The notes under the pieces are model-generated. The model made no database searches. It was not told the origin of the DNA and worked only from the letters and a program-made list of their open reading frames with translations. This document shows positions 14,607-62,070 of a stretch of DNA of 64,000 bases, one piece after another. Every line of letters starts with the position of its first letter. The first letter of the stretch is position 1. This stretch comes from Polaromonas sp. (lineage in GTDB: Bacteria; Pseudomonadota; Gammaproteobacteria; Burkholderiales; Burkholderiaceae_C), in NCBI RefSeq assembly GCF_030680935.1, contig NZ_JAUXUP010000030.1:62001-126000 (forward strand). Reading direction: 5' to 3'. The position numbers and the translations under genes were made by a program.

Positions 14607-14666
14607 GCCTTTTAGACCTCTGGCCCATGTCTGATATGCGCAGGCAGCTATCAATTCAGGAGTAAA
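14607..14666 (-). repeat. Dispersed repeat copy A
   Basis: Reverse-strand copy of the window's short dispersed repeat. Read on the minus strand it has ATAGCTGCCTGCGC, ten bases, then TGGGCC, and ends in AAAGGC. The left arm of the hairpin is decayed. It fills the space between the DUF1289 and DUF2007 genes. Confidence 0.7.
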
Positions 14667-14674
14667 CTGGTTTT

Positions 14675-14983
14675 ATGCTCCGACTCGCCCGCGCGCCCAA
14701 CATTGCCATTGCAGCGCTGTGGGCCGACGTGTTGCAACAGGCCGGGTTTTCTGCGACGGTGCAGCGTTATTTTCTGGGCAGCGTGGCGGGTGAATTGCCG
14801 CCCGACCAGTGCCAGCCAGAAATCTGGCTGACCCACGACCATGAAAAGCCGCAGGCACAGGCGCTGTTGCACAGTCTGCAAAACCGGCCGCAGCGGCACT
14901 GGCTTTGCGCTTGCGGCGAAACCGTGGAAGGTGGTTTTGAGCAGTGCTGGAACTGCAGCGCGGATATGCCGGCGCCTGCCTAA
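14675..14983 (+). CDS. DUF2007-type protein with C-terminal zinc ribbon
   Basis: Small cytosolic protein of 102 residues. The N-terminal two-thirds ([22 protein letters not shown]...[17 protein letters not shown]) is a DUF2007-like ferredoxin-fold module, often described as a putative signal-transducing domain. The C-terminus carries CAC and CWNC, which could form a four-cysteine zinc ribbon. It ends four bases inside the convergent purB gene. The function is unknown. Confidence 0.75.
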
Positions 14984-16377
14984 ACCCTTTTGGCGAGTTC
15001 GGCGGCCTTGCCGGTGTAACTGGCCGGCGTCATGGCCAGCAGCCGGTCTTTCTCGGCCTGCGGGATCTCCAGTGAGCGAATCAATCCGTGTAAGGCCTCA
15101 GCCGTCACGGTTTTGCCACGCGTGACTTCTTTCAGTTTTTCGTAGGCGCCCTGCACGCCATAACGGCGCATCACGGTCTGGATAGGCTCGGCCAGTACTT
15201 CCCAGGCGGCATCCAGATCGTCGGCCAGTGCGTCGTGGTTCAGCTCCAGCTTGCCCAGGCCCACCCCCATCGAGCTGTAGGCCAGCACGGCGTAGCCGAA
15301 AGCCACGCCCATGTTGCGCAGCACGGTGCTGTCGGTCAGGTCACGCTGCCAGCGGCTGATGGGCAGTTTTTCGCTCATATGCCGCAGCAGCGCGTTGGCC
15401 AGGCCCAGATTGCCCTCGGCGTTTTCAAAATCAATCGGGTTGACCTTGTGCGGCATGGTGCTTGAACCAATTTCACCGGCCTTCAGGCGCTGCTTGAAGT
15501 AACCAACGCTGACATACCCCCAGACGTCGCGCGCAAAGTCAATCAGGATGGTGTTGGTGCGTGCCACCGCGTCAAACAGCTCGGCCATGTAGTCGTGCGG
15601 CTCGATCTGGATGCTGTAGGGCTGGAAACTCAGGCCCAGGCCCAGTGGCTCGGGCGACTCGATCACGCGCCGGCTCAGCGCCTCCCAGTCAAAATCAGGC
15701 CAGGCCGAGAGGTGGGCGTTGTAGTTGCCGACCGCGCCGTTCATTTTGGCCATGATTTTCACGCTGGCGATACGCTCGCGCGCCACATCCAGCCGCGCCA
15801 CCACATTGGCAATCTCCTTGCCAACGGTGGTGGGGCTGGCGGTTTGGCCATGCGTGCGGCTCAGCATGGGCTCGTCGGCGTAGCGGTGCGCCATCTCGCG
15901 CAGCTGGGCAATCACCTTGTCCAGTGCCGGTAGCAGCACCTGCTCGCGGCTGCTTTTGAGCTGCAGCGCATGGCTGGTGTTGTTGATGTCTTCGCTGGTA
16001 CAGGCGAAGTGCACAAACTCGGCGGCGGCCATCAGCTCCGGCCGGGCGTCAAACTTGGACTTGATCCAGTATTCCACCGCCTTGACGTCATGGTTGGTGG
16101 TTTTTTCGATGTCCTTGATGGCTGCGGCGTCACTTTCAGAGAAGTGTTTGCTTAAGCCCAGCAAATAGGTGCGTGCTCCCGGGCTTAGCGGCTTGAACTC
16201 GGCAAACCCTGCATCCGACAGTGCAATCAGCCAGACCACCTCCACCTGCACCCGGCGGTGCATATACCCGAGCTCTGACATCAGGGGGCGCAAGGCGGCC
16301 AGACGGGTGGCGTAACGGCCATCCAGGGGGGACAGGGCGGTGATGGCGAAGCTGGTGGACGGGGTCATGGGCGACAT
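14980..16377 (-). CDS. purB: Adenylosuccinate lyase
   Basis: Purine biosynthesis enzyme of 465 residues, catalysing fumarate elimination from SAICAR and from adenylosuccinate. The fumarase/aspartase superfamily signature [19 protein letters not shown] is intact, including the catalytic Ser of the mobile loop. [15 protein letters not shown] carries the catalytic His, and [12 protein letters not shown] is also present. The length matches the long proteobacterial PurB form. ATG at 16377 or nine bases later are both possible. It converges on the DUF2007 gene with a four-base overlap. Confidence 0.97.
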
Positions 16378-16570
16378 TGTAGGCGGGCCATCTGGCGCTA
16401 CCTTGACGCTACCCTGGCGTGCCGGACGGCGGTTTCCTGTCTTTTTTGTGCCGTTTGCCAGCCGCCCCGCCTTACTCGATAGAATGCATTTGACCTACAG
16501 CCTGTCCGATTTGCAAGCGGCGATTCCCAAGTCCGCCAGGCTCCCAGGGCTCACGATAAAAGAAACAGCT

Positions 16571-17197
16571 ATGAAACTCATTGGATCCAACGGCAGCCCA
16601 TACGTGCGCAAGGTGCGCGTCGTCATGGCGGAAAAAAAACTCGACTACCAGTTCGTCATTGAAGACGTCTGGGCTGCCGGCACCGCCATGGCCGAATCCA
16701 ATCCGCTCGGCAAAGTGCCTTGCCTGGTCATGGAGGGCCCCAATGGGTCGGAAGAAGCCGTTTTTGACTCGCGTGTCATTGTGGAATACCTCGACACCCT
16801 GTCGCCCGTGGGCAAACTGATCCCGGTGCAGGGTCGTGAGCGCGCCGAAGTAAAAACCTGGGAGGCGCTGGCCGATGGCCTCATGGATGCGGCCATTCTG
16901 GCGCGGCTCGAAGCGACCTGGTCCGGCCGCACCGACAAGCAGCGCAGCCAAGCCTGGATTGACCGCCAGATGAAAAAAATAAACGACACCGTGCAGGCCA
17001 TGAGCACCGGGCTGGGCGACAAGCCTTTTTGCAGCGGCATTCACCTGAGCCTGTCGGATGTTGCGACGGGCTGCGCGCTGGGTTACCTGGATTTTCGTTT
17101 TGCGCAGATTGACTGGCGCACACCGCACCCCAATCTGGCGCGCCTGTATGAAAAGCTGATGCAGCGGCCCAGCTTCGTGGATACCGTGCCTTCCTGA
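16571..17197 (+). CDS. Glutathione S-transferase family protein
   Basis: GST of 208 residues. ATG 16571 was chosen because MKLIGSNGSPYVRKVRVVMAEK is the usual start of the thioredoxin-fold domain (about 1-80), with Ser9/Pro10 in the catalytic loop and ESNPLGKVPCLV carrying the cis-Pro. AVFDSRVIVEYLD supplies the glutathione gamma-Glu site. The all-helical C-terminal domain follows (about 90-205; HLSLSDVATGCALGYLDFR). Resembles the YibF/stringent-starvation-like GST group. The substrate is unknown. Confidence 0.9.
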   Translation: MKLIGSNGSPYVRKVRVVMAEKKLDYQFVIEDVWAAGTAMAESNPLGKVPCLVMEGPNGSEEAVFDSRVIVEYLDTLSPVGKLIPVQGRERAEVKTWEALADGLMDAAILARLEATWSGRTDKQRSQAWIDRQMKKINDTVQAMSTGLGDKPFCSGIHLSLSDVATGCALGYLDFRFAQIDWRTPHPNLARLYEKLMQRPSFVDTVPS

Positions 17198-17247
17198 GAT
17201 TCTTGAGGGTAAAATGGCCTGCAACCCTTGTCGGGCAGGTGCAAACA

Positions 17248-60437: not shown

Positions 60438-60483
60438 AGCCCTTGATTAGGCAACGAATATGCCATTTCGAAAGCGGGCGATC

Positions 60484-60518
60484 GCTGAAAACTTGCGAAA
60501 ATTAGCGAAAATAGCGAC
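60484..60518. repeat. Phased A-tracts with 10-base period upstream of def
   Basis: GCTGAAAACTT, GCGAAAATTA, GCGAAAATA and GCGAC follow one another at about helical-turn spacing, ending 18 bases before the def ATG. Such phasing bends DNA and may act as an upstream promoter element or regulator site. Confidence 0.45.
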
Positions 60519-60536
60519 ATCTGATTGCACGCCACC

Positions 60537-61058
60537 ATGACCTTACTGACTATTCTTCGCTACCCGGACCCCCGTCTGCATACCGTCGCCAAGCCTGTGG
60601 CAGCGGTGGATGCACGTATTCGTGCCATTGCCCGCGACATGCTGGAAACCATGTACGAAGCCCAGGGCATAGGCCTGGCGGCCAGCCAGGTCGACGTGCA
60701 TGAGCGGCTGGTGGTGATTGATATCAGTGAAGGCCACGACCAACCCCTGGTGCTGATCAACCCGGAGATTGTCTGGGCCAGCCCCGAGACGCAGGTCAAT
60801 GATGAGGGTTGCCTGTCGGTGCCGGGCGTTTACGACGGCGTGCAGCGTGCCAGTGCGGTCCGGGTGCAGGCGCTTGATCTGGACGGACAGCTGCGGACCC
60901 ACAGCGCCGAAGGCTTGCTGGCGGTTTGCATCCAGCATGAGATGGACCACCTGATGGGCAAGGTGTTTGTCGAGTACCTGTCGCCGCTCAAGCGCAACCG
61001 CATCAAGACCAAGATGATCAAGCAAAAGAAAGACGAAGAACGCGACGCAGTTCGCTGA
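60537..61058 (+). CDS. def: Peptide deformylase
   Basis: Metal-dependent deformylase of 173 residues that removes the N-formyl group from nascent proteins. The three motifs are intact: [19 protein letters not shown] (Cys ligand) and [12 protein letters not shown] (HExxH). ATG 60537 gives the usual [21 protein letters not shown] start; a TTG 12 bases upstream is less likely. It lies 31 bases ahead of fmt, forming the standard def-fmt pair. Confidence 0.98.
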
Positions 61059-61089
61059 GTCTGTCTGCGGCATCGGCGAAAATACACCG

Positions 61090-62070
61090 ATGCGCGTCAT
61101 TTTTGCTGGTACCCCTGAATTCGCCCGTGTGGCTCTGGCGCAACTTCACGCCGCTGGTTTTGATATTCCCTTGGTGCTGACACAGCCGGACCGCCCGGCC
61201 GGCCGCGGCATGAAGCTGCAGGCCTCGGCCGTCAAGCAGTTCGCGCTGGAAAAAAACATACCTGTGGTTCAGCCGCGCAGTCTGCGGCTCGACGGCAAAA
61301 CCCCGGAGGACGCGGCTGCCGCACAGGCTGCAATGCTGGCCGTGCGCGCCGACGCCATGGTGGTGGCAGCCTATGGCCTGATCCTGCCGCAATGGGTGCT
61401 GGGTCTGCCCAGACTGGGTTGTTTCAACATCCATGCGTCGCTGTTGCCACGTTGGCGCGGCGCGGCGCCGATTCACCGCGCCATCGAAGCGGGCGATACA
61501 GAGACCGGCATCACCGTGATGCAAATGGACGCAGGCCTCGACACCGGCGACATGCTGCTCGTCGGCAAGCTGGCCATCACGCCGGAGGACACCACCGGCT
61601 CACTGCACGACAGGTTGGCTGCCCTGGGCGGACGCCTGATGGTCGATGCGCTGGCGCTGGCGGCCAGCGGCGGCCTCAGGCCTGTCCGTCAGCCCGAGGC
61701 CGGGGTGACTTACGCCCACAAGATCGACAAGGCGGAGGGCGTGATTGACTGGTCCCAGACGGCCGAAACCATAGGCCGGCGTATCCGGGCCTTTGACCCG
61801 TTTCCTGGTACCCACTCGGTGTTGGGCGGCGAGACCATCAAGCTCTGGAGCTATGAAATTGATAGCTGCATGCGCCCGTCCAATGTGGGCTGCGGCACGA
61901 TTTTGTCTGTAAATTCGGCGGGTGTGCAGGTGGCTTGCGGGCAGGGTGTGTTGCGCCTGACCGGGTTGCAGCGCATGGGTGGCAAGCGCCTGCCGGTGGC
62001 CGATTTTCTGCGTGGTTTTGCACTGGCGCCTGGCATGGTTTTTGGATCCGGGCGGGAGGTGACGCCATGA
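61090..62070 (+). CDS. fmt: Methionyl-tRNA formyltransferase
   Basis: Formylates initiator Met-tRNA; 326 residues. The catalytic domain (about 1-205) has [71 protein letters not shown] and the catalytic Asn/His/Asp. The C-terminal OB-fold (about 210-315) follows. Residues about 254-273 ([20 protein letters not shown]) are encoded by a dispersed repeat inserted in frame in that OB-fold region. The stop overlaps the azlC ATG (ATGA). Confidence 0.97.
61850..61907 (+). repeat. Dispersed repeat copy H, inside fmt
   Basis: GCTAT-N7-ATAGCTGCATGCGC-N10-TGGGCT-GCG-GCAC...TTTTGTC, entirely inside fmt in the coding sense. The frame continues without a stop. The GCTAT/ATAGC hairpin is perfect. Confidence 0.8.

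Follow-up and report, generated by a model that had tools for sequence, protein, structure and literature searches.

Why does a bacterial genome hold hundreds of copies of a dispersed sequence of about 70 bp, and what keeps these copies in place? The question is raised by a stretch of 64,000 nucleotides from Polaromonas sp. (the window; assembly GCF_030680935.1, contig NZ_JAUXUP010000030.1, positions 62,001 to 126,000), in which a sequence-only reading had noticed a repeat family with rigid internal spacing. The repeat is real, its copies largely hold their places among related genomes, and at shared sites its blocks change more slowly than the filler between them. The explanation that we put forward, at roughly even odds of being correct, is that the copies are ancient inserted units, similar in placement to repetitive extragenic palindromic (REP) sequences, which are now kept as the sites of a co-evolving putative DNA-binding protein.

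The unit is about 70 bp long, and the composite, asymmetric DNA site within it spans about 55-70 bp. Columns are numbered from the G of GCTAT (column 0). In the copies of the window and of 20 further stretches of the same genome (G000; 3.85 Mb, 82 contigs), sequence information starts at column -4 and fades past column 65. The G000 consensus reads AnTT GCTAT nnWWTYn ATAGCT GCTTGCGCA nGYnnnRY AAGGGCT RnAGSC nnATTTGRC..AAA and comprises, in order, an AT-centred dyad (GCTAT-N7-ATAGCT), GCGC (columns 22-25), GGGC or GCGC (columns 37-40), AGSC, and a T3 or A3 tract. The GGCC and TTTGGC that had been assigned to the end of the element are present but only partly conserved, and AAA can replace TTT.

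The exact spaced pattern, with up to three mismatches, is matched five times in the window and never in 100 shuffles. A looser scan (25 block letters, with alternatives permitted at two of them) and an iterated weight matrix yield nine copies, six on the plus strand and three on the minus strand; the nine match 19 to 24 of the 25 block letters, and other hits match 17 or 18. Both the N7 and the N10 spacers are invariant in all nine copies (ungapped alignment). The fixed spacing that had been proposed is thereby upheld, while the strands and the number of copies required correction: those at 14607 and 17248 lie on the minus strand, with cores starting at 14663 and 17264, the second of them is a full copy rather than a half, and a further minus-strand copy, at 12170, had been overlooked. 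The nine copies are given below with their matrix scores; "occupied" and "not recognised" refer to the element at the orthologous place in other genomes of the genus.

12105..12174, minus strand: copy 1, score 51; occupied in G033 and G075, not recognised in G073 and G026.
14598..14667, minus strand: copy 2 (formerly 14607), score 56; occupied in G033, G073, G075 and G026, degraded in the low-copy genome G074.
17199..17268, minus strand: copy 3 (formerly 17248), score 69; occupied in G033, G073, G075, G026 and G004, absent from G074 and G013.
18491..18560, plus strand: copy 4, score 80, the top match of the window, flanked by two co-directional genes; occupied in G033, G073, G075, G026, G004 and G012, degraded in G074, G062, G083 and G011, empty in G013.
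28014..28083, plus strand: copy 5, score 63, in a spacer of two convergent genes; occupied in seven further genomes of the genus, not recognised in G074, G011 and G013.
31204..31273, plus strand: copy 6, score 66, which overlaps the minus-strand gene 31213-32394 at its 3′ end; occupied in G033, G073, G075, G026, G004, G014 and G024, not recognised in the copy-rich genomes G017 and G081.
33048..33117, plus strand: copy 7, within the minus-strand coding sequence 32439-33767, score 71; occupied in nine other genomes, without the element at equal length in G074, G062 and G083, not recognised in the copy-rich genome G012.
46689..46758, plus strand: copy 8, between convergent genes, with AAA for TTT, score 53; occupied in G033, G073, G075, G026 and G004.
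61846..61915, plus strand: copy 9, within the coding sequence 61090-62070, score 62; absent at the orthologous place in G033, G073, G075 and G026, and the only window copy common to none of the genomes mapped.

The family is neither limited to the window nor at chance level. G000 contains 310 matches to the originally described pattern at up to three mismatches (0 to the reversed pattern) and 488 matches to a broader pattern at up to two mismatches (control 0). The weight matrix, trained on the window and the 20 stretches, which were picked for holding copies, finds 89 copies in these 456 kb and none in the reversed sequence. Among 61 genomes of the genus, including G000 itself, the broader pattern is matched in 44, with counts from 0 to 666 (controls 0 to 3 per column). 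Of 200 genomes sampled from the family, 118 are matched at least once, with a maximum of 853; at least 20 matches occur in 49 genomes, belonging to 34 of the 126 genera by our own count of the table. The first pattern had no match in 24 genomes belonging to other families of the order, and 21 stretches matched in a scan of 2.9 million viral contigs. The matches listed (at least 119 stretches) confirm the earlier statement that similar sequences occur in other Comamonadaceae: they come from Polaromonas, Rhodoferax, Acidovorax, Simplicispira, Xenophilus, Curvibacter, Giesbergeria, Ramlibacter, Diaphorobacter, a Rubrivivax bin and several bins without a genus name, together with a single Pseudidiomarina match (L235) that is probably due to chance.

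When orthologous sites are compared, occupied, degraded and empty ones are all found among the relatives. Eight of the nine window copies are occupied in G033, a relative of about 80% identity, the sole exception being 61846. G033 and G075, whose aligned coding sequences differ by about 9%, have 21 of the 22 mapped site groups in common, one site having probably been counted twice. The element at 28014 can still be recognised in its seven other genomes even though much of the surrounding spacer can no longer be aligned. The gene block at 28092-35065 has about 75% identity in both G075 and G004. Compared between G033 and G075 it is 77.5% alike, versus 88-93% in the directly adjoining DNA; this is a sign of exchange of the block, and its elements nonetheless stand at the same places.

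The blocks are constrained at these shared sites, in line with the view that the family is not a simple duplicated sequence. With 35 high-information and 21 low-information columns, defined by the G000 paralogs, the difference between G033 and G075 (21 sites) is 0.155 in the former and 0.331 in the latter, while four-fold sites differ at 0.209. The corresponding values are 0.181, 0.545 and 0.404 between the window and G075 (nine sites), and 0.079, 0.250 and 0.115 between G033 and G073 (eight sites). Column information and difference are negatively correlated (rank correlation -0.70), and columns 1-2 and 14-16 show no difference in four pooled genome pairs.

The 3′ half of the element exists in lineage dialects: GGGCT in G000, GCGCA in P. 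glacialis and its relatives, and a further one in genus g54. The dyad GCTAT-N7-ATAGCT is retained. At column 38, G occurs in 92 of 94 G000 copies and C in none; G also prevails over C in G033 (31 to 4), G075 (24 to 3), G026 (25 to 2) and G014 (16 to 1), and the two are even in G017 (3 to 3). C is found in 25 of 25 copies of P. glacialis G061, from stretches chosen in part for a young subfamily described below, and in all copies of G024 (11), G019 (6) and G070 (4). Column 41 tends to change from T to A along with column 38 (A in 22 of 25 G061 copies and 8 of 11 G024 copies). The shift extends to shared sites: five G000 sites map to copies in G024, by both flanks for 31204, 33048 and L254:7975 and by one flank for the other two, and all five G024 copies have C at column 38; a sixth mapped site has no element there. 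The g54 genome G113 contains 298 exact dyad matches (control 1; palindromic dyads were counted on both strands), yet only five matches to the broader pattern, and 23 of its copies define a third dialect in the same register, AGGCA-ATAAATACG-cCGGCTA-nAGCC-ATTTT.

Placement relative to genes was assessed with 97 copies scoring at least 35 in 525 kb of G000, using a home-made gene caller. Only 25 of them lie inside called genes, while about 85% of the first 456 kb is called coding. Three copies have no neighbour in their stretch, and the other 69 are intergenic: 28 lie between convergent genes (11.9 expected from spacer length), 34 between co-directional genes (37.0 expected) and 7 between divergent genes (20.1 expected), a skew with a chi-square p of 2e-7. 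The median distance from the core to the 3′ end of the neighbouring gene is 13 bp, and 46 of 62 copies lie within 30 bp. In co-directional spacers, 14 copies have the same orientation as the genes and 20 the opposite (p 0.39), indicating no bias. Copies inside coding sequences retain the block at the expense of rare codons: ATA reaches 46 per 1000 codons in them versus 3.0 in all called genes, and a rare-codon set 0.28 versus 0.09. A copy within a frame that was named catalase-like by eye (L294:10242 in P. glacialis G061; also L300, L303 and L304) keeps its TAGCT block in four genomes; three of these use the rare codon ATA there and one uses GTA. Along the main contig of G024, 62 matches are evenly spread (Kolmogorov-Smirnov p 0.81) and form no strand arcs (p 0.97).

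Genomes with few matches to the broader pattern (G074, 73 copies; G062, 130; G083, 103) carry degraded versions at sites that are intact in copy-rich relatives, such as 18491, which is intact in G012 (495 copies). Decay does not affect all sites: at 31204 the three genomes still have copies scoring 51 to 62. Matrix hits per 10 kb are 0.87 in G074, 1.00 in G062, 1.17 in G083 and 1.00 in G011, versus 1.05 to 1.36 in seven copy-rich genomes, and the mean scores are 34, 46, 37 and 28, respectively, versus 48 to 60. The zero-copy genome G013 gave no matrix hit in 40 kb; its spacer at 18491 is about 75 bp shorter and devoid of the element, so that at this one site the unit is present or absent as a discrete insertion, such as a miniature inverted-repeat transposable element, should be. 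The in-gene sites 33048 and 61846 have equal lengths with and without the element, and all empty sites come from genomes too divergent for an insertion junction, with any terminal inverted repeats or target duplication, to be read. The bare dyad is absent from seven of ten zero- or near-zero-copy Polaromonas tested and occurs 3, 2 and 4 times in G023, G076 and G082, respectively. In a one-gene tree of 30 rows, which is only a guide because the gene has probably been exchanged between some species, zero-copy lineages form clades between copy-rich ones.

From the copy number, register, placement, site stability, slow block change, dialects and degraded low-copy copies, we infer a reader protein, its dimeric state, its loss as the cause of decay, and a cellular role. 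On this view the units would be old insertions, made for the most part directly after the 3′ ends of genes and since fixed. A trans-acting DNA-binding protein, probably at least dimeric, would still use the copies, and for this reason they would be kept in place; it may be an architectural (nucleoid-type) protein or a domesticated transposase. A change in its preference within a lineage would be followed by the 3′ halves of the copies, giving rise to dialects, and in a lineage that loses the protein the copies would decay by substitution.

A folded structure had been the other option of the sequence-only reading. An RNA element at the 3′ ends of mRNAs, acting as a terminator, a stabiliser or a processing site through hairpins in the transcript, would explain the closeness to gene 3′ ends, and G000 copies have a mean fold z of -1.1 and -1.3 versus -0.3 for random pieces, reaching -2.4 in four G061 copies (single-base shuffles). 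By eye, the second stem is fully complementary in some Acidovorax (L244: CTAGCGCTT-N7-AAGCGCTAG) and some P. glacialis copies, and thus pairing may matter in some lineages. In the 97 G000 copies, however, pairs 0-16 to 4-12 of stem 1 show both-side changes in 0, 0, 0, 0 and 3 copies, none beyond shuffles, and in the putative stem 2 the columns fail to pair in 85 copies at 21-41 and in 93 at 24-38. With stem 1 uncompensated and stem 2 broken at two pairs in nearly every copy, a fold is not supported in this genome, and of the two options binding by a protein fits better. Nor were compensatory changes of the kind that would keep a REP-type stem found in 79 copies of three relatives. Across 119 distinct copies of many genera, drawn from 123 of the matches listed after the Pseudidiomarina match, duplicates and cut copies had been left out, there is no clear covariation (the 5′ block being fixed by ascertainment), and the largest excess in the putative stem 2, at pair 26-36, is 0.43 versus 0.32. 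The plus-strand fold z of G033 copies (-0.37) is no better than random (-0.47). Mutual information among 89 copies reflected mainly neighbour effects, with TTT or AAA changing en bloc, and no convincing stem; an intrinsic terminator was also rejected, given the unbiased orientation, the weak folding, the unconserved pairs and a consensus that, judged by eye, has no U-run following a strong hairpin. In Rfam, no family reached its gathering score in the window, and 20 other loci gave three sub-threshold matches. On this balance the RNA element appears improbable. The main rival reading, possible but on the whole unlikely, is that the copies are miniature elements of a REP-like kind, which continue to be copied at a low rate by a single transposase of the Y1 type, a REP-associated transposase (RAYT), with blocks that reflect the needs of the transposase, dialects that arose by transposase-element co-evolution, and fixed sites that are old insertions. 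Like GTAG-type REPs and REPINs with RAYT (PMC3733652, PMC2817692 and PMC8049555), the element combines a high copy number with placement near gene 3′ ends in convergent or co-directional spacers, rarity between divergent genes, occasional in-gene copies, an internal TAG (columns 12-15 mostly read RTAG), and a RAYT-like gene, which a sensitive protein search found in 10 of 10 genomes, rich or poor in copies. The young subfamily of P. glacialis also points this way. It differs from these systems in having no covarying hairpin in Polaromonas, in its length of about 70 bp with further boxes besides the dyad, in the constraint on its blocks at fixed sites, and in the relation to the RAYT, which is described in PMC2817692 as always flanked by REPs and as changing faster than its neighbours. 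RAYT distances are indeed 2.4- to 8-fold those of the neighbouring gltB-like protein, but the ratio is 2.4 to 2.6 in pairs with G013, the only zero-copy genome so compared, and 2.7 to 8.0 among copy-rich genomes; it is not raised in the G013 pairs and hence gives no sign of release. The gene was matched in 60 of 61 same-genus genomes, including zero-copy ones. With a RAYT family model, matches were obtained in 18 of 19 genomes rich in copies and in 13 of 17 poor in them; in those that the model missed (G210, G102, G093, G130 and G166) the protein search found the gene. None of 11 RAYT loci is flanked by inverted copies as in REP systems: ten have no element scoring at least 14 within about 1.6 kb of the domain (where the stretch has one at all, the nearest is at least about 1.65 kb away), and only L261 of G012 has one, at about 0.3 kb on one side. 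The RAYT, which is neither flanked by copies nor tracks their number, could thus not be tied to the element as the mobiliser that had been suggested, and conserved blocks at old insertions are not expected if only transposition needs them.

Maintenance of the sites by biased DNA uptake and recombination, with no benefit per site and with a receptor preference that sets the dialect, would account for hundreds of copies on both strands and in genes, for dialects that shift in concert at shared sites, and for loss in some lineages. High copy number, dialects and orthologous stability are the pattern of uptake sequences in Neisseria and Haemophilus (DNA uptake sequences and uptake signal sequences). 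These are, however, far shorter than about 30 specified positions over 55 bp, arise by point mutation and lie mostly in genes, whereas the present copies avoid coding sequences and divergent spacers and look like inserted units, and the uptake reading accordingly has little to commend it. Least probable of all is a family without present function, whose copies would be the decaying relics of an old burst. Fillers do change at or above the rate of four-fold sites, and decay is seen in low-copy species; relics would change evenly, though, and at the same sites blocks change far less than fillers. As for the putative DNA-binding protein, several observations weigh against it. No such protein was found, and the only candidate put to the test was the RAYT-like gene, which does not track copy number. 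Single sites are lost in copy-rich genomes too, as in G017 and G081 at 31204 and in G012 at 33048. The dialects are not absolute, with C at column 38 of site 33048 in G026, G075 and G017. Several columns that are informative in G000 (19-21, 26, 36 and 41) differ at 0.39-0.58 between orthologs, which we tend to read as lineage preference, and the comparison of blocks and fillers leans towards conserved blocks in that the matrix was trained on G000 and a pass was needed in both genomes. That the half-sites at columns 3 and 13 deviate jointly in 0 of 161 cases (Fisher p 0.023) speaks for the protein, but the test is weak, is biased towards this result by the score cut-off and is significant in no single genome. 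The ATA excess arises in part from the block itself, and the G000 element does fold slightly better than random 70-mers. Finally, the young subfamily of P. glacialis looks like recent copying or levelling.

This subfamily, GCTACTGAATTnATAGCTGCTTGCGCATGCCAGnCGTGCGCAAG, was seen in G061 (L274-L287, L273); it has near-identical fillers, often lies shortly behind a TGA stop, and in some copies includes a long complementary second stem. One of its sites, 3420921, has diverged copies in G070 and G019. At 1209010 the element of G070 and G019 is in the opposite orientation (by eye), at 1195300 the only genome mapped, G024, has none, and at 3018298 the spacer on the G070 side is unrelated. These sites are too mixed to prove insertion.

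In G000 the RAYT-like gene is single-copy (L254:3476-4171, minus strand, 231 amino acids). In 7 of 11 loci the gene adjoins one that we take to be gltB-like. In G097 (L384), a one-contig genome of another genus, there are 20 Y1 transposase matches, several of them score-identical and some split in two, which are probably an active IS200-type element.

Literature searches, also by sequence, found no paper on the whole element, but fragments of it are in print. Two potential novel motifs were reported in 2017, ATAGCT(N)22CAAAAG with 125 copies in P. naphthalenivorans CJ2 and GCTTAT(N)5AAGCG with 114 copies in Acidovorax ebreus TPSY (PMC5217627, Table 7), both mostly intergenic and with many copies between convergent genes. 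In our alignment of the printed motifs, the former is in register with columns 12-17 and 40-45 in a G024-type dialect, and the latter with columns 24-29 and 35-39 in an Acidovorax dialect. That account treats them as two separate motifs and does not cover the whole unit, how far it is spread, its dialects, the stability of its sites or selection.

The Beta-proteobacterial repeat element (BRE) is likewise a dispersed repeat known from Polaromonas, Rhodoferax and Acidovorax; it is described as about 90 bp long, about 69% GC in Bordetella, often tandem, and present in up to 29 copies per genome (PMC3110155). By that description, not by its letters, it is set apart from the present element, with its length of about 70 bp, AT-rich dyad and hundreds of copies. 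A second, GC-rich, dispersed and partly tandem repeat, GGCCGCAGGCGCAGCG..CCCCCTCGGGGGGCAG..GTGGGGGC, has many copies in Polaromonas (L295:17430-17700 and L294:19535-19600; in G000, L044:14232-14324, L035:9618-9736 and L132:12827-12919) and, judged by the published description of BRE alone, fits it better.

The usual view of dispersed intergenic repeats is that they are mobile or form hairpins. In this family, hundreds of copies for the most part stay where they are and change one letter at a time, with the blocks under constraint; in some lineages the dialects shift in concert, and two unexplained published motif pairs are joined as one family. Somewhat more tentatively than the explanation given at the outset, we suggest that about 500 cognate sites of one putative DNA-binding protein may exist per genome such as G000 across much of Comamonadaceae, with a recognition half that shifts by dialect while the sites stay, and that the system, possibly nucleoid- or domain-organising, may have been lost several times. 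The family offers a testable system for why bacteria keep such repeats, through the reader protein, the dialects compared with its sequence, and the effects of copy decay. If the proposal is true, it would provide a natural series of co-evolving protein and site sets.

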